Source: Nitrosopumilaceae archaeon (GTDB lineage Archaea; Thermoproteota; Nitrososphaeria; Nitrososphaerales; Nitrosopumilaceae). From it: a stretch of 48,164 bases of DNA. Shown one piece after another: positions 10,137 to 20,500 of this stretch. Where the stretch lies: the NCBI GenBank assembly GCA_022823825.1, contig JAJEHG010000054.1, forward strand, positions 1 through 48,164, given 5' to 3'. The number at the start of each line of letters is the position of its first letter. The first letter of the stretch is position 1. The notes under the pieces are model-generated. The model was not told where the DNA came from. It was given only the letters and a program-made list of their open reading frames with translations, and made no database searches. The position numbers and the translations under genes were made by a program.

Positions 10137-11102
10137 CTACCATCGCTCTGTGTGCGAATAAAGATCAGGCGGCATTCCCTCTAGCCTCACATCAAATTTC
10201 AGAGATGGCTCGGCTCTTGAACTCGCGTTGTGGATTCTAAACGATATCTGCCACCCGTGGTTCAGCATGACTATCATCCTGTTTTTGCCTACCCTCTCGA
10301 TATCGACTATTCTAGATGGACTTTTCAGACTTGGTATTTTACTCTGCGCGCTTGTCGAGTTTGAGGGCATGTTGAGCGTTCCGTTCATGTTGTATCCCTG
10401 TATGATCACGCTCTTGTCGTACTTCATTATTTTGTAAAAGTCCTTCTTACCGAGTAGGTACTCCAGCAGTAGAGGGGGGATGTTACCTCCTTTCTGCATA
10501 AACCTCTTCATCTCGTCTTCAAACGTGTCAAGCACCGGAACGTAAAACTTGTCGGCTTTTCCTTGTATCTCGTTCCATAGCAAGACATGTCCATCATCTT
10601 TCTTGCTTTCATTTACCATGTCCCTCACATATCCAAAAATTTTGCGTACCGCGCCCATGTATTGGGGTGAGCAATCCACACCAAACCATTCTCTGCCGAA
10701 GTTAATCTTATCCGACAGTCGGGAATGCTTCACCGCACTGTTCTGGTTCTTTGCAGAAAGTCCGATCTCCCAACCGCTTCCAGGTCTTGTCACCAACACG
10801 TCCCTGATGTCACCGTCTTTGCCTGTCTGATCCGGCTGGACGGACACAACTACCTTGTCATTGCCGCTGACGAGATTCTCCAATCGAGGTTCTAGCGCGG
10901 CGATGTGTCCGACGGCGACATTGGCAGCTTTGGAATACTTTTCTTGTGCGTCACTCGAGCAGGATTCAAAAGATCTTTTCGCAGTTTCGTACGAGCCGTC
11001 CTTCTTCAGTACCCTAGCCTCTCGGCCGTCATTTGCCCTTTCATACGCAGCGATCAGCAGCGCGTACTCAAAGGCTTTCCCCGACGTCGTCTGCGAGGCC
11101 AT
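10137..11102 (-). CDS. Type II restriction endonuclease, HaeIII-like
   Basis: Predicted DNA endonuclease partner of the adjacent methyltransferase. The 321-residue protein contains SVQPDQTGKDGDIRDVLVTR followed by WEIGLSAKNQNSAVKHSRLS and a later NFGREWFGVDCSPQYM. The D-(x)n-E-x-K arrangement in GDIRDV...WEIGLSAK fits a PD-(D/E)XK core. The EIGLS.K...AVKHSRLS block resembles the HaeIII restriction enzyme family; this is recalled pattern similarity, not a search. Its ATG overlaps the methyltransferase stop by one nt (TAATG), so translation is coupled and methylase comes first. The recognition site cannot be read from sequence. Confidence 0.7.
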   Translation of the reverse strand: MASQTTSGKAFEYALLIAAYERANDGREARVLKKDGSYETAKRSFESCSSDAQEKYSKAANVAVGHIAALEPRLENLVSGNDKVVVSVQPDQTGKDGDIRDVLVTRPGSGWEIGLSAKNQNSAVKHSRLSDKINFGREWFGVDCSPQYMGAVRKIFGYVRDMVNESKKDDGHVLLWNEIQGKADKFYVPVLDTFEDEMKRFMQKGGNIPPLLLEYLLGKKDFYKIMKYDKSVIIQGYNMNGTLNMPSNSTSAQSKIPSLKSPSRIVDIERVGKNRMIVMLNHGWQISFRIHNASSRAEPSLKFDVRLEGMPPDLYSHTERW

Positions 11103-11944
11103 TATCCGTCCGTCGTAGCTCCTTTTTCGGTAGTGTTACAGCAGGGTGGCGCCGGAGCTTCCGCCAAGTTCTTTGATCTTTCTGTAACGTCGTGGCTGAG
11201 CACCAACAATTCCCTGGCCTCCTTGTCATGAGACATTCCGTAACTCCACTTGGGGTAGTAAAACTGATAACCGTTGTACATGTGGCGCACCTCTTCTGAA
11301 TTGTTGTATGAGAGGATCCACTTATCCCTTCCCTTGAGGATCTCTGCGAGTCCCTCGTGGTCGAATCCGGTATGCATGTCGCCGTTTCTGCCGTAGAGTT
11401 TCTGATCCAACATGTACGGCGGGTCGAGGTACAAGAAGTGGTCTTCCGACTTCGGTATGGACTCTTTGAAGTCCGCCTGCTTCACGCTGAGGTTGTCTGA
11501 CTCGAAGTTTCGGATCCTGTCGATGGAGGATTCGGTGAACCTTGGATGATGCGGCGACATGCCGCCGGACATAGTAGTTCCAGAAAATGACGCACGGTTC
11601 AACACGTAGAATCTGGCCGCCCGCTCGTACTTTGACTTGCTCTTCCCCTGTGACCTTTGTAGCTCGTAGAATTTCTCCTTTGGCAGCGGATAGTGGTGTT
11701 GTACGGTGTCGGCCAGCTTGACAGGATCCTTGAGAATACACTGCCAGAACTCCACAAGCGGTTTGAAATTATCATATCCATAGACGCGCATTCCTTTGTT
11801 GGCGCACGCCAGTTCGACCGAGCCGCCGCCTAGAAAAGGTGAGCAGATCGTCTCTCCGTCCGGGATGAACTTCATTATAGCCTCTACTCCCCTAGTCTTT
11901 CCGCCTGCGTATCTGAGTGGGGAGCGCGGCGCCGCGGTCTTCAT
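11102..11944 (-). CDS. D12-class (Dam-like) DNA adenine-N6 methyltransferase
   Basis: Modification enzyme of a type II R-M pair. The 280-residue protein opens with SPLRYAGGKTRGVEAIMKFI (FxGG AdoMet motif I of the alpha group), then FLGGGSVELACANKGMRVYG, a target-recognition middle, and the catalytic LYLDPPYML (DPPY motif IV). This architecture marks N6-adenine methyltransferases of the Dam/DpnM/EcoRV type. It precedes and overlaps the endonuclease gene (TAATG). An A/T box (plus strand TCTATTTTGG, about 11965-11974) lies at leaderless distance from the ATG at 11944. Codon choice is less GC-extreme than in flanking housekeeping genes. Confidence 0.88.
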   Translation of the reverse strand: MKTAAPRSPLRYAGGKTRGVEAIMKFIPDGETICSPFLGGGSVELACANKGMRVYGYDNFKPLVEFWQCILKDPVKLADTVQHHYPLPKEKFYELQRSQGKSKSKYERAARFYVLNRASFSGTTMSGGMSPHHPRFTESSIDRIRNFESDNLSVKQADFKESIPKSEDHFLYLDPPYMLDQKLYGRNGDMHTGFDHEGLAEILKGRDKWILSYNNSEEVRHMYNGYQFYYPKWSYGMSHDKEARELLVLSHDVTERSKNLAEAPAPPCCNTTEKGATTDG

Positions 11945-12194
11945 TGCCGATCCACCGCAAACCGTCTATTTTGGTTTTCGCGTATTCCAGCCAACTACAA
12001 AGTGCGTCCATAGTTGGGCTGGGAAGAGTGATTTTGGGTAAGGTAAGAAGGTACGGAATCGACGTAACACTGGTGTGTTAATGATGAGGGCCCCGTTACA
12101 ATAGGAACGCGGGTGCTCATACACCTTAAAGCTGACAGAGAAACATGATGCAGATTGCAAAGGTCACTGACAAGTCATTCTGGTATGACCCCGT
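11945..12194. other. Non-coding stretch before the left repeat copy
   Basis: No gene with protein-like composition is seen. The first 35 nt hold the methyltransferase promoter. The rest shows short open frames without family features. The decayed repeat copy begins at about 12195. Confidence 0.4.
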
Positions 12195-12320
12195 CATCCT
12201 ATGGTGGACACGAATCTACAGGATACGCAACGGACTGTGCACCACCCTGAGAAGAACCTCGACTAGGCACGATCTGCGCTGCTCCGGGCCCGAAACAATC
12301 AGCAAAACCCGTCTCGCCCC
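12195..12320 (+). repeat. Decayed dispersed repeat, copy C (left island boundary)
   Basis: This segment matches 20226-20352 in the same orientation. Both read CATCCTAxxGTGGACACGAAT near the start, share TAGGCACGATCTGCG in the middle, then GGGCCCG.AACA.TC and AGC/GGCAAAACCCGTCTCGCCCC at the end. Scattered substitutions and stops in every frame indicate an old remnant rather than an active element. It lies just left of the regulator/Ubl module. Confidence 0.7.
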
Positions 12321-12420
12321 TCCAGATTGGGAATACCTGAATGGAAACGAATTTGGCACGGCAGGGGGGATACCTCCTGCCAGTCATCCATGCTGAGGTC
12401 ACGATAACATATCAATCCCG

Positions 12421-12852
12421 TCACATTATTCCTTTAATGTGGTAAGATGGATATTTTTCATGAACATAATTTAGCAAATTCACATATGACATACCTCCAT
12501 ATTCACGACAAACATATGCAACTGCATCTTTAATGTCTCCTGTATTTCTATGCATTTTTTCTGCATGCAAAATCGCTTTTCCAAATTCAGTCAAAGCGTA
12601 GCAAAAAACATTATTACCAGATGGGGTTTTTTCGATTCTCTCTTCGACAAGTCCTAATTCCTCAAGATTTGAAACATAACGATTCACGTCACTAGAAAGC
12701 GGTCCTAAGGGAGCAGGTTCAAAATCATAGTTGAGAGGTACAGTACATTGGGTTTGTGTAAGAAACACTAATTTTTGAAGTCTTGTTTTGCCTCTAAGTC
12801 CGTCGTTAAAATTCGATATAATTTCGAGTATGATAAATAATTCATTCATCAA
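12421..12852 (-). CDS. Winged-helix, YwgA/Panacea-like regulator
   Basis: A 143-residue, AT-rich gene. FNDGLRGKTRLQKLVFLTQT is the K-x-R-LQK-LVFL signature of YwgA-like and SocA/Panacea-type domains, several of which act as regulators or antitoxins. NRYVSNLEELGLVEER and YALTEFGKAILHAEKMHR follow as a winged-helix-like second half. It is translationally coupled to the upstream gene by a 4-nt ATGA overlap. The pair is divergent from the Ubl operon, so it may control that operon; this is inference from position. Confidence 0.6.
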   Translation of the reverse strand: MMNELFIILEIISNFNDGLRGKTRLQKLVFLTQTQCTVPLNYDFEPAPLGPLSSDVNRYVSNLEELGLVEERIEKTPSGNNVFCYALTEFGKAILHAEKMHRNTGDIKDAVAYVCREYGGMSYVNLLNYVHEKYPSYHIKGIM

Positions 12853-13361
12853 TTATTTTCACCGTTATTGCTTCGCAATCCAGTTCCCTCTTCATATCCT
12901 TCCAACGGTCCAATAGCGTTTAAAATAGCATCTTCATAACTTCTGAGTTTCTGCTTGACTTCGTTACGAACATCTGACATATTGTTGATTTCATATAGAG
13001 CGGCCGGTGGCCTGCCAGAAGACGTTACTGCATCCACATCATCGCAGCGTGTTACAAAACCTCTCGCGACTAGATTTTCAAGCGCCTGTCCAACATTTCT
13101 TTCAGTATGTTTTAATCGAAACTCCTCAGGTAATATACTGACAAGCGATTTAAGCAGCAAGAAGATCCTATGTGCCGAAAATAGCGGATTCCGTTCTACC
13201 CATTTTTGAACGAACAGAAATATGCATACCGCAGTATCGGTACTGCCAAATCCTAACGCCAGAAAACTACCACCATATTTAGAGAGAAGTCGAGTGTATG
13301 TGTCTGACCACCCCGGCCTCGTATCCATCAAAACGATACAAGCACTCATACTAATAATCAT
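12849..13361 (-). CDS. Putative helix-turn-helix regulator, partner of the downstream gene
   Basis: A 170-residue protein. The middle, PEEFRLKHTERNVGQALENL then VARGFVTRCDD and GRPPAALYEINNMSDVRNEV, looks like a winged helix with the GRPxxxYEI wing seen in TrmB/MarR-type regulators. An N-terminal hydrophobic stretch (GGSFLALGFGSTDTAVCIFLF) may be a helix of the fold rather than a membrane anchor. First gene of a two-gene operon, with ATGA overlap into the next. In-frame ATGs at 13349 and 13328 are alternative starts. The intergenic inverted repeat at 13457-13500 could be its operator. Confidence 0.5.
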   Translation of the reverse strand: MIISMSACIVLMDTRPGWSDTYTRLLSKYGGSFLALGFGSTDTAVCIFLFVQKWVERNPLFSAHRIFLLLKSLVSILPEEFRLKHTERNVGQALENLVARGFVTRCDDVDAVTSSGRPPAALYEINNMSDVRNEVKQKLRSYEDAILNAIGPLEGYEEGTGLRSNNGENN

Positions 13362-13545: not shown

Positions 13546-13555
13546 CTTTATAATC
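13546..13555 (+). promoter_or_regulatory. TATA box of the Ubl-E2-E1 operon
   Basis: CTTTATAATC is centred about 26 nt before the Ubl start ATG (13576), consistent with a leaderless operon transcript. No comparable box precedes the E2 or E1 genes, whose starts overlap or abut the upstream stops. Confidence 0.55.
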
Positions 13556-13575: not shown

Positions 13576-13809
13576 ATGTCCATAGACATCACGATCGACA
13601 AGGAAGAGTTCAAGATCGAAGGGGACAAGATCTCTGTTGAAGACATCATCAGACTTGCCAAGCGCAAGATCGATGATTACGAGGTACAAAAAAGAGATTG
13701 CAAAACAAATTCCTTGGAGAAAACATACGACGACCCAAAAAAGATCATAGATCTGAAGGATGGAGACTGCTTCACCGTAAGGTACACAGGAGTTGTAAAC
13801 ACCGCATGA
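13576..13809 (+). CDS. Ubiquitin-like modifier (multi-ubiquitin family, single domain)
   Basis: A 77-residue protein with a beta-grasp pattern: strand SIDITIDKEEFKIEG, the helix ISVEDIIRLAKRKIDDYEV, and a final DLKDGDCFTVRYTG strand. The order and the EDIIRLA...DY...IDLKDGDxF motif resemble the multi-ubiquitin domain of prokaryotic Ub-like operons. Those proteins often have tandem copies; this one has a single copy. The C-terminus is VVNTA, with no diglycine, so either an extreme C-terminal residue is used directly or conjugation does not follow the canonical route. It overlaps the E2 gene by 4 nt (ATGA). Leaderless start. AT-rich relative to the chromosome. Confidence 0.7.
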   Translation: MSIDITIDKEEFKIEGDKISVEDIIRLAKRKIDDYEVQKRDCKTNSLEKTYDDPKKIIDLKDGDCFTVRYTGVVNTA

Positions 13810-14168
13810 GCACCTCCAACCTTATTTTTTCTAAGTTTTTAAAAGAACGAGGTATGAGCTATGTTGAAGAACCCATAGGCAGCATGACAATATTCGTCAT
13901 ACATGAATACAAAATACCACATGGAAAATATTCCGGCCGAGTCATAGGCATAGGCTTGCCGATTCCTGACGACTTCCCAAATGTTCCACCATATGGGTTT
14001 CACGTAAGATGCAATCATGGGTTTTCAGATGAGATTCCCAGTCGTAACACCAGTGACCTGGGTTCGGATTGGGAATTCTGGAGTAGAGAGATACGGTGGG
14101 ATGATCCAGAACAACAAACTCCGAGATACTACATGGATCAGATAAACAGATGTTTGGAGCTGGATTGA
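13806..14168 (+). CDS. Prokaryotic E2-like ubiquitin-conjugating protein (Prok-E2_E type)
   Basis: A 120-residue E2/UBC-fold protein. YSGRVIGIGLPIPDDFPNVP then PYGFHVRCNHGFS corresponds to the E2 core from strand to active-site loop, with C69 as the candidate thioester cysteine. The end, GSDWEFWSREIRWDDPEQQ followed by YYMDQINRCLEL, matches the W..WSR...W.......Y...I...L tail I associate with Prok-E2_E. It lacks an HPN motif, as those families do. The gene begins inside the Ubl stop (ATGA) and ends directly at the E1 start with zero gap, so the three proteins are expected in fixed ratio. Confidence 0.72.
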   Translation: MSTSNLIFSKFLKERGMSYVEEPIGSMTIFVIHEYKIPHGKYSGRVIGIGLPIPDDFPNVPPYGFHVRCNHGFSDEIPSRNTSDLGSDWEFWSREIRWDDPEQQTPRYYMDQINRCLELD

Positions 14169-15554
14169 ATGGATTATAGCATAGCCATGACGGAAACTCT
14201 AAGTCGCCAGATGCAGTCTTTTTTGCTAAAAGACACTACAGAAGAAGAGGTCTGTTTTGTAACATGGCGGCCATCCCAGGGCGTCCAAAGATGCAATATT
14301 CTGTTAAACGAAGCAATCTATCCAGAAAAAAATGAACGCAAAAAACATGGAACGGTGTCTGCACAGCCCTCATATGTAAAAAGATGTGAGGAATTTGCGG
14401 TAATGAGGGGCGCTGGACTTGCCATGATCCATACGCATCCTTTTGGAGTTGGAATTCAGCATGTCTCAAAAATAGATCGGCATTCGGAGCAAGACATACT
14501 TGCTAAAGAGGTGTTTGGGATAACAGGGCTGCCATTTGTAGGCATAACACTCTCTGGAGATAATGTATGGAGCGGCAGGATATACCCAAAACCCTTTAAA
14601 ATCCGGAGGTGTCAATCCGTTAGAATTGTGGGCAAGAACCTTGCCATTGACTTTAACCCTCCAGTGACGTCACAAACTGATTCAAATCCAATGCAGGTGA
14701 GAACTGTTAGTTTGTGGGGCAATAACACCCAAAACAACCTGGCGCGAATGAAAGTGGGCATCATAGGAGTTGGCAGCGTCGGATCGGCAGTAAGCGAGAT
14801 TCTAGCCAGAATGGGAATAGGAACAATTTTCTTGATGGACTATGACAGTGTTGGGATTCACAATCTTGACAGAATGATCGGTGCTTACAAAACAAATGTA
14901 GGAATGTTGAAAAAAGATGCCATAAGAAAAAACATAATAAAAGTAGCCACGTCTAAACGTTTTGCATGTATAACATCAAATAACTCCATAGTAGAAAAAG
15001 CGGGGGTGAAAGAAGCGCTTGACTGTGATGTTATATTTTGTTGTGTAGACAGGCCATGGCCACGGCTTGTATTAAATCAGATTGCGTACTCTAGCTTAAT
15101 CCCGGTAATTGATGGTGGTATCAGTTTTGATGTCACAGATGGCAAAATGCAACACGGTGTTTACAGGGCACAAACCATAGGAGTTGAACGGGCATGTCTA
15201 GACTGCTCGGGGGGATTGCGATTAGAACAGGTGGAAAGAGACAGACAGGGGACGTTTGATGACCCGGAATACATCAAGAAACAAGAGGCATCAGGTAAAA
15301 ACACTAGATATAACATAATTCCATTCTCTTTAGGCCTTGCAAGTATGGAAACAATTCAGTTTGTAGAGATGGTGACAAACATCGCGGGAATTGGGGACAT
15401 GAAACAGCAGACATATGATTATACCAGTGGCGAGATCATTCCAAAACCATTCAATTGCAGAGAAAAATGCACGTATAGGCAACTTACAGCAAATGGCGAT
15501 TCTGTAGATCTTAGCATAGGCATGGATAAATCCAGATCTAGGAGTTTGGAATGA
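14169..15554 (+). CDS. JAB/JAMM isopeptidase fused to E1-like ThiF adenylation domain
   Basis: A 461-residue bifunctional protein. The N-terminal half carries a JAMM metalloprotease motif: an acidic cluster E25-E27, then MIHTHPFGVGIQHVSKID, giving H88xH90 and S100xxD103. From about residue 190, KVGIIGVGSVGSAVSEILAR (G200xG202xxG205) starts a Rossmann fold, with FLMDYDSVGIHNLDRM as the acidic nucleotide-ribose strand and CDVIFCCVDRPWPRLVLNQI later. C343LDC346 and a C-terminal CREKC are candidate zinc or thioester cysteines. It would adenylate the Ubl, pass it on, and also release it. Co-fusion of a JAB and an E1 next to a Ubl and an E2 is a known prokaryotic arrangement. Start abuts the E2 stop. 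Confidence 0.8.
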   Translation: MDYSIAMTETLSRQMQSFLLKDTTEEEVCFVTWRPSQGVQRCNILLNEAIYPEKNERKKHGTVSAQPSYVKRCEEFAVMRGAGLAMIHTHPFGVGIQHVSKIDRHSEQDILAKEVFGITGLPFVGITLSGDNVWSGRIYPKPFKIRRCQSVRIVGKNLAIDFNPPVTSQTDSNPMQVRTVSLWGNNTQNNLARMKVGIIGVGSVGSAVSEILARMGIGTIFLMDYDSVGIHNLDRMIGAYKTNVGMLKKDAIRKNIIKVATSKRFACITSNNSIVEKAGVKEALDCDVIFCCVDRPWPRLVLNQIAYSSLIPVIDGGISFDVTDGKMQHGVYRAQTIGVERACLDCSGGLRLEQVERDRQGTFDDPEYIKKQEASGKNTRYNIIPFSLGLASMETIQFVEMVTNIAGIGDMKQQTYDYTSGEIIPKPFNCREKCTYRQLTANGDSVDLSIGMDKSRSRSLE

Positions 15555-15622
15555 TACTTAGCGATTTTCTATTATCAGTAAGTGATAGTACATGTTATAG
15601 CAAAGATGAGCTCAAATCTTAA
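15551..15622 (+). CDS. Possible 23-residue fourth operon member
   Basis: An ATG embedded in the E1 stop (ATGA, the same coupling used between Ubl and E2) opens a short frame, MILSDFLLSVSDSTCYSKDE LKS, ending at TAA 15620-15622. The junction style suggests a real or formerly longer gene. The following 250 nt do not clearly continue it in any frame. It may be a microprotein, the stub of a deleted fourth gene, or chance. Confidence 0.3.
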   Translation: MILSDFLLSVSDSTCYSKDELKS

Positions 15623-15830
15623 CTGGTGGAAATCATAGTCTCGGGATATGAGCGCCTGACCAGATTCTCATACAAGAATCAGAACTTTTGGGACGCGAAA
15701 AACCAGAGAAGAGTTTCGTATAAAGGACAACAGGGAGGAGAGTGCCCTACCACAGGGTGTTTATCCGGAAATCTGGGCACATGCCGGATGTGTCTGCGGT
15801 CTGCCGGCCCGTAGGCCCGGTCGCTTTCAG

Positions 15831-17116: not shown

Positions 17117-17130
17117 AAATTCGTGTAAGC

Positions 17131-17480
17131 TATAGCTAGAAGCGAAAGTCCTTGAGTGATCAACCTTTCAAATGGAAACAAATTTTGAGCCTCCCTGTAT
17201 CACGTACGGCATGGCAACGGCAAGACTGGGGGACCGGAAGAAAGCATACGAGAAAGAAAGAGACCTTCGAGCCAATATCATGATGACTACAGCAAACACG
17301 GTGTGCGTGAACAACAAAAACGTCCAGATGCGGCAGACTCACCGATGCAATACCCCGACTGGGTCTCCATTGAGTCGAACGCTTCAAGAATCGGCAGTCA
17401 CCCTCTGGAACCTTCTAGGGCCGGGCAAGCCGCCCAAGGTGGGACATGGCGGGATGGGACGTGGTGCGTCACGGAAATGA
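17131..17480 (+). repeat. Decayed dispersed repeat, copy A
   Basis: Starts TATAGCTAGAAGCGAAAGTC and aligns in direct orientation with copy B from 19857. Shared blocks include AGTCCTTGAG.GATCAACCTT, CTGTATCACG.ACGG.ATG, CAACGGCAAGAC, GTGCRTGAACAACRAAARCR, TCCAGATG.GGCAGA and GGCCGCCCAA/GCCGCCCAAGGTG. Conceptual reading with frameshifts gives a charged start (ATARLGDRKKAYEKERDL) and NTVCVNNKNVQ, then QYPDWVS in another frame. This might be the N-terminal DNA-binding part of an IS630-like transposase; the transposase reading is tentative. Confidence 0.7.
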
Positions 17481-17854: not shown

Positions 17855-18940
17855 GTGGATTCATGCCTCGATCGTTTTATTAAAAATTTTAAAAAAATCA
17901 AGATTGGCAAAAAAACCATTTTAGATTGGTCATATCATCTTGCTACGAAAGACTCAAAAGCATTTGAAGTACAACATACCGGGACATTATTCAAGCTAGA
18001 TCTTTTATATTCTTATCTTGATTTTCCCTATCTTCATATTATGTCAAGACAGCGACAAAAATATAATACAAAGCTAATTTTCTTAGATCTTTATTCTGGA
18101 AATGGCTTGAATAAGATTAAAAGTGAATCATCGCTTTTTTTATGCGGCTCTTCCTTACTTGCACTTTTATGCTCTCATAATCAAACCATCAAAAAACAAT
18201 ATCCATGTTACTTCGATTATACCGTAATGATAGATAACGATAAAGACTCAATCACAACATTGTACGATCGGTGTGACGCTTTAACAAAAGATCTTAAAAT
18301 TAGTAACAAGCTAAAATTAAGTAATAAGTTTGAAACAGATGCGCAATTGCTAACAATTAGAGGAGATGTAATAAATCAGGATTTCATTTCTCAGCTATGC
18401 CTTTGGTTAGACTCAATCTGGCAAGATAAAATACATATTATGATGTTTGTAGATCCAGGCTCTCCGGGACGTTTGTCTATGCAGACTCTAACAAATCTCT
18501 TAACATATCCAGGAGATTTAATAATACTTTTACACCAAGAACTGTTTGTGGAAATGGTTCTTAAGAAACGCTACAATACTGATACTATACAGCGAATGCT
18601 TGGAATGAATAAAACCGATGCCGAATCACTATTTAATAAGTCTAAAGCTGAATTATCGAGATTGTATGTCAAACGTTTTGTAGATACTATACAGGGAGTT
18701 AAAATTGATCGACTGTCATCGGGTTCTAACTACCGCAATGTAGTTTCTTCTATTAAAATTCGCACTGACAAGCAAACATATACACTTCTTTTTGCGACAA
18801 GAACAACAGGTGGAAAACATCATGAGACATGGCAAAAAATATTTAGTGATTATAATACGTGTATAGAAAAATTATCCGACGCAGGAAAAACTATGATAGG
18901 CGTGCTTAAAGGTTCACAACAGAGAGTAGATATGTACTGA
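17855..18940 (+). CDS. tcmP: Three-Cys-motif partner protein TcmP
   Basis: A 361-residue, strongly AT-rich gene. The protein starts with helices then DWSYHLATKDSKAFEVQHTG, followed by KLIFLDLYSGNGLNKI, the conserved FxDxYSGxG block of TcmP that resembles a methyltransferase glycine-rich loop. IHIMMFVDPGSPGRLSMQTL corresponds to the FIDPxG motif region. TcmP proteins are known for co-occurring with three-Cys-motif proteins, and one follows 155 nt downstream. The enzymatic role of the pair is not established. The start is GTG at 17855, with an A/T box about 27 nt upstream. Base composition and flanking repeats suggest recent acquisition. Confidence 0.82.
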   Translation: MDSCLDRFIKNFKKIKIGKKTILDWSYHLATKDSKAFEVQHTGTLFKLDLLYSYLDFPYLHIMSRQRQKYNTKLIFLDLYSGNGLNKIKSESSLFLCGSSLLALLCSHNQTIKKQYPCYFDYTVMIDNDKDSITTLYDRCDALTKDLKISNKLKLSNKFETDAQLLTIRGDVINQDFISQLCLWLDSIWQDKIHIMMFVDPGSPGRLSMQTLTNLLTYPGDLIILLHQELFVEMVLKKRYNTDTIQRMLGMNKTDAESLFNKSKAELSRLYVKRFVDTIQGVKIDRLSSGSNYRNVVSSIKIRTDKQTYTLLFATRTTGGKHHETWQKIFSDYNTCIEKLSDAGKTMIGVLKGSQQRVDMY

Positions 18941-19095: not shown

Positions 19096-19881
19096 ATGGC
19101 TCTTGGTTCCAAGATAGAGTGGACCGAATCCACATGGAATCCAACAACAGGCTGTACAAAGATATCTCCCGGATGCGCAAATTGCTATGCAGATCGATTA
19201 ACCAAACGACTCAAAGCCATGGGACAGAAAAAATACGCAAAAGAGTTTCAATATACCGAACATAACTCAGAATTGACATTACCACTAAACTGGAAGAAAC
19301 CGAAAAAAATTTTTGTCAATAGCATGTCTGATCTATTCCACGAAGATGCAACGATGGAGTTTATAGGAGCATGTTTTTCAACTATGCTGAAAGCGAACTG
19401 GCATATATATCAGGTTTTGACCAAAAGGCCTGAAAAGATGATAGAATTTTCTAAGTTGTTTGTCAGCTATTTTGGGCATAAAATTCCGGCAAACATCTGG
19501 ATGGGCACAAGTATAGAAAACTCGGATTATAAATGGCGAGCAGATAAACTTAGAAAAGTTCAATGTCAAATACGTTTCTTAAGTATTGAACCACTAATTG
19601 GCTCTGTAGGAAAAATCAACTTAAAGGGAATTAACTGGGTGATAATTGGTGGAGAAAGTGGATATGGGTTTAGGCCACTTAAAAAAGAATGGGCTATGGA
19701 CGTTATTGATCAATGTAACCAACAAAATGTTTCTGTATTTTTTAAACAATGGGGAGGAATTAGAGCCAAAGCAGGAGGACGTACGATTGATGGAAAAACG
19801 TACAACGGTTATCCAAAAGTTACAAATTTACCCCCGCGCTCAAAATCTCGTATACCTATAGCTAGAAACAAAAGTCCTTGA
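19096..19881 (+). CDS. Three-Cys-motif protein (DUF5131, phage Gp37/Gp68-like)
   Basis: A 261-residue protein with the defining IEWTESTWNPTTGCTKISPG then CANCYADRLTKRL, that is C-x6-C-x2-C, a radical-SAM-like cluster motif on a TIM-barrel-like protein. KKIFVNSMSDLFHE, IYQVLTKRPEKM, IWMGTSIEN, RFLSIEPLIG, WVIIGGESG and FFKQWGG follow in family order. It is the expected partner of TcmP. The last codons (IPIARNKSP) lie within the start of repeat copy B at 19857, so the natural C-terminus may have been replaced by repeat sequence. AT-rich. Confidence 0.88.
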   Translation: MALGSKIEWTESTWNPTTGCTKISPGCANCYADRLTKRLKAMGQKKYAKEFQYTEHNSELTLPLNWKKPKKIFVNSMSDLFHEDATMEFIGACFSTMLKANWHIYQVLTKRPEKMIEFSKLFVSYFGHKIPANIWMGTSIENSDYKWRADKLRKVQCQIRFLSIEPLIGSVGKINLKGINWVIIGGESGYGFRPLKKEWAMDVIDQCNQQNVSVFFKQWGGIRAKAGGRTIDGKTYNGYPKVTNLPPRSKSRIPIARNKSP

Positions 19882-20352
19882 GGGATCAACCTTCCAAACA
19901 AAAACAGATTTTGATCCCGCTGTATCACGCACGGTATGACAACGGCAAGACCGGAAGACCTGAAGAAAACATACAGGAAGGAAAAAAACCCTCAGGTCAA
20001 GATCAGGATGACAGCGGAAGCATGGCGTGCATGAACAACGAAAGCATCCAGATGTGGCAGATTCGCTGATGCAGCGCCCCAACGGATCTCCATGCGGGTC
20101 AAACGCTTTGAGGAGGGCGACGTGGCCTCCCCCTAGAACCTCCCAAGACCTAGCAGGCCGCCCAAAGTGAAACGCAACGAGAGGAGTCGGATGAGGAACG
20201 AGGCATGAACCGGGATAACCATCATCATCCTACAGTGGACACGAATCCACATTATGCGTGATATCCTACGTACTTGCCACTGAAAGAAGTCCGTCTAGGC
20301 ACGATCTGCGTTGTTCTGGGCCCGGAACAGTCGGCAAAACCCGTCTCGCCCC
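19857..20352 (+). repeat. Decayed dispersed repeat, copy B (contains segments of copies A and C)
   Basis: The left part (to about 20200) aligns with copy A and the right part (20226-20352) with copy C, in the same orientation, so this is the most complete copy. A frame at about 19935-20032 reads TTARPEDLKKTYRKEKNPQV then KIRMTAEAWRA before a stop. WQIR.SPNGSPCGSNALRRA-like fragments continue in other frames. The pattern of frameshifts suggests a dead gene, possibly an IS630-type transposase. The remainder to 20500 shows no gene. Confidence 0.7.
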
Positions 20353-20500
20353 TTTGGCTCTGCACTTGTCACATGACGGATCTCGCGTACCTCTTCACAG
20401 ATCGCTGTCTGATTAGATTATTCGCATACCAAATCCTAGGTACGGTCTGCTAGTTACAAAAAACAATGCCATAGCCCGCTCTTGCGAAGAAGACTAAGAA

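Follow-up and report, generated by a model that had tools for sequence, protein, structure and literature searches.

A probable Bub-type operon for reversible ubiquitin-like protein conjugation in an ammonia-oxidising thaumarchaeon

Analysis of the window, a 48,164-nucleotide stretch of DNA from a Nitrosopumilaceae archaeon, showed three same-strand genes in its open reading frames (13576-15554, +), encoding a ubiquitin-like protein (Ubl), an E2-like protein (E2) and a fusion of a JAB (JAMM) protease with an E1 adenylation domain (JAB-E1). Judged by sequence homology, they very probably form an archaeal Bub-type operon, a cassette for the reversible conjugation of a ubiquitin-like protein to other proteins. 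The assignment is based on homology to BubCD across both domains of the fusion, intact JAMM and adenylation residues, the presence of a BubB-like E2 (Prok-E2_E) and, from fold and synteny, a Ubl of the multi-ubiquitin kind. A previous sequence-only reading had proposed a full archaeal set of Ubl, E2, E1 and deconjugase in which a single polypeptide combines activator and JAMM protease, and homology likewise predicts this; its kinship with Ubl/E2/E1/JAB operons also stood, although the named and structurally solved relative, Bub, had been missed. The host genome is a draft of 1.70 Mb in 68 contigs (89.6% complete) and encodes an archaeal AmoA (E=8.5e-117); the host is therefore an ammonia-oxidising thaumarchaeon.

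The genes are tightly packed: the Ubl stop and the E2 start codon overlap as ATGA, and the E2 stop is followed by the ATG of JAB-E1 with no gap. The three frames and both junctions were all found as first described, as was the operon start, whereas its end had been placed at 15622, 68 nt past the actual stop at 15554. The GC content of the operon is 0.427, vs. 0.571 for the whole window, and it sits inside a low-GC stretch at approximately 12-20 kb of the window. A TATA-box-like element precedes the Ubl gene (Table 1) and is a possible, putative leaderless promoter of the operon; in archaeal promoters of this type the spacing of TATA box and start follows a rule. A short open reading frame lies directly after the operon, and the only match in an Rfam scan was a tRNA.

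Table 1. Features of the operon, its surroundings and the related loci referred to in the text (positions without a locus name are those of the window).
Feature	Positions	Strand	Remarks
BubA-like single-domain beta-grasp Ubl	13576..13809	+	77 aa; C-terminus RYTGVVNTA, no diglycine
BubB-like E2 (Prok-E2_E)	13806..14168	+	120 aa; candidate active-site residue S93 (FWSREIRWDDP), not C69
BubCD-like fusion, N-terminal JAMM/JAB protease and C-terminal E1 (ThiF) adenylation domain	14169..15554	+	461 aa
TATA-box-like element TTTATAAT	13547..13554	+	~25 nt upstream of Ubl start; read from sequence
Short open reading frame	15626-15814	+	62 aa; GTG start, cysteine-rich end (CPTTGC ... CRMC)
Winged-helix-like gene, divergent from operon	12849..13361	-	170 aa; weak HTH matches: Lrs14 E=0.0082, MarR_2 E=0.11
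Sso10a/PadR/Panacea-like gene	12421..12852	-	143 aa; overlaps the 170-aa gene
HaeIII-type restriction endonuclease overlapping D12-class N6-adenine methylase	10137-11944	-	endonuclease PF09556 E=6.7e-86
TcmP (three-Cys-motif partner) and DUF5131 genes	17855-18940 and 19096-19881	+	PADLOC candidates PDC-M41A, PDC-M41B
Dispersed direct repeats, first family	12194-12321 / 20225-20353		
Dispersed direct repeats, second family	17130-17287 / 19856-20012		
CARF-wHTH gene, L026	4750-5517	-	
CARF-wHTH gene, L029	4873-5622	-	
CARF-wHTH gene, L030	2445-3236	+	
CARF-wHTH gene, L031	4876-5616	+	
TIR_2 gene, L027	7766-8569		
TIR_2 genes, L029	7675-8505, 8576-9499		
TIR_2 genes, L031	2020-2817, 191-964	-, +	
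ShosT/ShosA-like pair, L026	2864-4533	+	PADLOC; upstream of the Bub-type operon, beyond the CARF-wHTH gene
Winged-helix gene (HTH_45), L006	17-352	+	upstream of the operon and in the same orientation; same-genus genome G206

The JAB-E1 protein matched Pfam ThiF at E=6e-27 and, in a phmmer comparison, BubCD at E=6.7e-20 over residues 6-320. A profile of 24 E1s matched BubCD at E=1.4e-69 over profile positions 4-413; profiles A4, A5 and A8 include the window's own sequences, which favours the window. For the protease half, Pfam makes no Prok-JAB call on the protein. The motifs reported before, H88-T-H90 ... S100-x-x-D103 and G200-V-G202-S-V-G205, are present, and in the 24 aligned E1s (window included) the JAMM residues H88, H90, S100 and D103 are invariant, as are the adenylation residues G200, G202, G205, D226, N232, R235, K248 and D294 and three cysteines of zinc-ligand type, C343, C346 and C434. 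A scripted search recovered the spaced JAMM pattern in 23 of the 24, L004 having a different spacing. Among the other cysteines, C292, which lies two residues N-terminal to D294 of the ATP site, is kept in 21 of 24 sequences, C430 and C286 in 13 each and the remainder in at most 12; in the closer set A1, C292 is Cys in 29 of 29 and C148 and C286 in 27 of 29 each. Because C292 (and, in set A1, C148 and C286) is widely kept, a cysteine step in the E1 is possible.

Identification of the Ubl rests on fold, synteny and pairwise similarity, since Pfam gave no useful match: Multi_ubiq (PF14452) had no match to the window Ubl at E≤1, the sequence is not filed in that family, and the related Ubl P0123 reached 13.5 bits against a cut-off of 24.5. 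The top six matches to the predicted fold were multi-ubiquitin proteins, BubA among them, and the sequence is 41% identical to an actinobacterial gene annotated as multiubiquitin that occurs in the same gene order. A tblastn search of plasmids with the Ubl returned seven records at E≤10, including three multiubiquitin genes of Rhodococcus operons, these matches being individually weak (best E=0.2). As previously described, the protein has a single domain and no diglycine, ending TGVVNTA. The Ala end proved to be a trait of the subfamily: the nine Ubls read (window and P0122, NTA; P0123, NNA; L018 and L035, GVA; L019, QVA; L020, L021 and L025, PVA) all end in Ala and none in Gly, several of them being close relatives, so that the independent number is smaller, and this count, like that of the E2s, leaves out the partners of E1s 47-62% identical. 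Outside the subfamily the ends are FS, GW, YG (four), SQ, RG, RS, FI and TY in L004-L010, L012 and L022-L024, YE in L036 and YG in L040.

These ends bear on the nature of the mature protein. There is a serious, if less than even, chance that the Ubl is a precursor from which the JAMM protease removes VVNTA, thereby exposing G72 and giving a glycine end like that of other Ubls. Such trimming is consistent with the intact JAMM residues, with the GGVA end of two actinobacterial relatives (L018, L035) and with the Ubls of L004-L010 and L012, which end in Gly or in Gly followed by one or two residues (YG, RG, GFS, GW, GSQ), but a glycine is not kept across the subfamily (QSAQVA, RTCAPVA, RQSAPVA), in contrast to the constant final Ala.

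The E2 scored 34.0 bits against Pfam Prok-E2_E (cut-off 25), and a Foldseek search with its predicted structure gave a weak best match (E=4.3e-3). The sequence-only reading had put forward C69 as the candidate active-site cysteine, which was not borne out. The window E2 has two cysteines, C69 and C116, and each of these columns holds Cys in 2 of 18 E2s (for C69, the window and the 93% identical copy P0124), a count that leaves out the E2s of L035, L036, L040 and G133; C69 was rejected as the catalytic residue for this reason. The S93 column is Ser in 16/18, W98 is Trp in 16/18 and P101 is Pro in 13/18, and the two rows without Ser at S93 (L022, L023) both have Ser two residues on. The order of Ser, W and P presumably resembles the stretch that follows the catalytic Cys of canonical E2s, with Ser replacing Cys, and this conservation makes S93 the candidate nucleophile. 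Bub chemistry reportedly proceeds via serine oxyesters. In the available text of the study that described such operons, their E2 type was called probably inactive for want of a cysteine (PMC1779556).

A canonical thioester relay through C69 is very unlikely on these data. The residue does exist and is kept in P0124, and the frequency of Cys at C292 would allow an E1 thioester, but Cys is rare in the C69 column and the cysteines that are invariant across the 24 E1s are those of zinc-ligand type. Alignment of the E2 profile with yeast Ubc4 was also unfavourable: this weak alignment (probability only 14.6), which ends at the strand before the active site, sets C69 opposite residue 73, 13 residues before Cys86, which we take to be the catalytic residue of Ubc4.

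For the Bub-type cassette, the following working can be proposed. The E1 half of the fusion would adenylate the C-terminus of the Ubl with ATP. The E2-like protein would then receive the activated Ubl and transfer it to a target, most likely via S93, or the E1 would hand it over directly, because the E2 keeps no conserved cysteine. Finally, the JAMM half of the same chain would cleave the Ubl off again, or would trim its tail beforehand.

Among known systems, Bub of Citrobacter (BubA, BubB, BubCD; PDB 9ea4, 9ea5, 9ea8, 9eae, 9eav) is homologous in all three parts and likewise consists of a Ubl, a Prok-E2_E-type E2 and a JAB-E1 fusion. The window operon differs in its archaeal host, its single Ubl domain and the Ala end of the Ubl, and Citrobacter BubCD is without C343 and C346, both kept by all 24 aligned E1s. 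BubA is longer than the window Ubl, since the Citrobacter structure uses its residues 155-229; the Citrobacter multi-ubiquitin protein of entries 9d59 and 9d5a is presumably BubA. Bil systems (BilA-D) have a separate E1, a separate JAB protease and an E2 with a catalytic Cys, unlike the window, where JAB and E1 share one chain and the E2 has no conserved Cys at its own Cys positions. Type II CBASS (Cap2/Cap3) combines a CD-NTase gene with an E2-E1 fusion, whereas the E2 of the window is a separate gene, no CD-NTase was present among the 10 window proteins scanned, and the PADLOC E1-E2 models, among the matches listed, match only the E1 part of the fusion protein. That Ubl and E1 are a sulfur carrier and its activating enzyme in cofactor or tRNA sulfur chemistry (ThiS/ThiF, MoaD/MoeB or SAMP/UbaA type) is highly improbable: although the E1 domain belongs to the ThiF superfamily, the ThiF (71.4 vs. 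159 bits), MoeB and UbaA (equivalog, 37.7 vs. 450 bits) models fall far under their cut-offs (best 25 of 35 matches), an E2 and a JAMM domain accompany the E1, and in the PDB the ThiF, MoeB and Uba4 chains match less well than BubCD.

Type 6e operons, as far as the available text describes them, share the JAB domain N-terminal to the E1, a Ubl of one to three repeats and a fused or standalone E2/RWD-like domain without a catalytic Cys, but come from proteobacteria, cyanobacteria and some actinobacteria, the window being archaeal (PMC1779556). No Pfam zinc finger, the partner in Type 6e, was found among the neighbours scanned. The Caldiarchaeum ubiquitin operon also comprises an archaeal Ubl, E1, E2 and JAMM protease, but in the available text it has a small RING protein and a separate Rpn11, whereas JAB and E1 of the window are on one chain (PMC5654768, PMC6043591), and an archaeal JAB-E1 fusion had been noted in 2010 in methanogen RC1, as extracts of that paper state (PMC2948915). 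Thaumarchaeal and haloarchaeal loci (L004-L010, L012, L022, L023 and, by gene position, L036) have the same gene order and domain make-up, with E1s ~22-31% identical to the window's, a range that depends on the alignment, and with other Ubl ends; several adjoin CARF-wHTH or TIR genes.

The distribution of the genes was surveyed among genomes of the same family. An E1 (E≤1e-20) was found in 9 of 250, the window's own included, and Prok-E2_E above its cut-off also in nine, eight being shared (hypergeometric P=2.4e-13; this value overstates the strength, as it includes the window genome and treats members of one family as independent). Of the two unshared genomes, G193, counted for its E2, also encodes a Ubl and, cut off at the edge of the available sequence, the beginning of a JAB-E1; G291, counted for its E1, carries in the E2 position a gene of 143 aa without a Prok-E2_E match. 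The co-occurrence called for by the sequence-only reading was thus found and, together with the ThiF and Prok-E2_E matches, lies beyond chance. The same nine genomes were the only ones with the E1 in 400 genomes of the class (E≤1e-20), and close relatives of the E1 were confined to the window's own genome among 398 genomes of the phylum (E≤1e-60) and 400 of the order (E≤1e-45). This rare, patchy distribution is what a mobile cassette would be expected to show.

A protein search with the E1 retrieved, of 8000 proteins scored, 1328 at E≤1e-5, with the window's own on top and, among the best 120 of the 1328, a closest relative of 62% identity; names of metagenome-assembled genomes (MAGs) on homologues, among the matches listed, include Nitrosotalea and Nitrosotenuis. 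The corresponding searches returned three matches for the Ubl, all at least 92% identical and one the window's own, and one match for the E2 (P0124). A tree was built from 129 E1s, comprising the listed proteins of 440-530 aa, those of 16 loci and that of the window, and was rooted for display on Haloplanus; here the window fell within a clade of 75 tips (support 0.99), in which the two named members are both thaumarchaeal MAGs. Operons of the same Ubl-E2-E1 order occur on six actinobacterial plasmids (L018-L021, L025, L035) and three haloarchaeal plasmids (L022, L023, L036), in Bradyrhizobium (L024) and, within the same archaeal family, at eight loci (L004-L010, L012). The annotation of L018 and L024 lacks the E2 frame, and in L036 the Ubl and E2 were assigned solely from their positions. 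Of the 26 plasmid records matched by the window E1, 10 are actinobacterial, and the L021 Ubl matched precisely these 10. Viral contigs held only four distant loci (22-35% identity), phage records gave no match at E≤1e-5, and a scan of genome contigs yielded a single weak locus (31% over residues 79-173), with no such operon seen there. A decayed, inactive island remnant is scarcely credible: atypical GC and dispersed repeats surround the operon, but its three frames are intact and overlap or abut, its catalytic residues are kept, and close copies of the Ubl (92% identical) and of the E2 (93%) are each recorded on a contig of 2,098,239 bases.

The setting had been described as a defence-type island, in line with the restriction genes and candidate defence genes found here in a stretch of atypical GC: around the operon are the HaeIII-type restriction gene, the D12-class adenine methylase, a wHTH pair, DUF488, TcmP and DUF5131. 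HaeIII itself pairs with a cytosine methylase, so the pairing or the specificity of the two genes in the window is unusual. In the wHTH pair, the 170-aa gene possibly regulates the operon, given its divergent position; the 143-aa gene matched Sso10a_fam (E=1.3e-4), PadR and SocA_Panacea below cut-off and PADLOC PDC-M19A at E=3.6e-11. The two families of dispersed repeats, which may be element ends, flank the low-GC block and the pair of TcmP and DUF5131 genes. Contig C55 carries a third copy of each, upstream of an IS110-family transposase frame by a few hundred bases; this frame matches from inside its domain and may be incomplete.

In four of eight family flanks, a divergent CARF-wHTH gene (HFX_2341_N and DUF6293_C) is directly upstream of the operon, and in three of eight (L027, L029, L031) a TIR_2 gene is directly downstream, two of these three loci having another TIR gene close by; in L030 a similar downstream gene, without a Pfam match, is cut by the contig edge. 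Neither a CARF-wHTH nor a TIR gene adjoins the window operon. Table 1 includes two further upstream neighbours, in L026 and L006. Bacterial Bub operons often adjoin CapW, CapH with CapP or CapK with CapS, and protection against phage by Bub had not been demonstrated, according to the available text of a 2026 study (PMC13373217); in that of a review, phage defence is given as the apparent main role of such systems (PMC12687455). From these neighbourhoods, the divergent winged-helix genes probably control expression of the operon, which probably serves a stress response or defence. A more specific reading, in which the Ala-ended Ubl passes by way of the E1 to S93 of the E2 without a terminal Gly or relay cysteines, and in which such operons of ammonia-oxidising archaea were adopted into virus or stress defence under a nucleotide-sensing CARF-wHTH regulator, with TIR effectors in some lineages, seems rather unlikely; our estimate for a cysteine-free route was lowered because a cysteine step in the E1 is possible.

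No paper on such an operon in thaumarchaea was found among the matches listed (titles and abstract starts, mostly from non-subscription literature). To our knowledge, the archaeal systems recognised so far are of the SAMP/Urm1 type or the Caldiarchaeum RING type. The operon would extend the bacterial ubiquitin-like pathway to ammonia-oxidising archaea. With a 77-aa, Ala-ended Ubl and an E2 with a candidate serine, it offers a small system in which ubiquitin-like chemistry lacking a glycine end could be tested, and the related operons beside CARF-wHTH and TIR genes may provide a route to its biological role.
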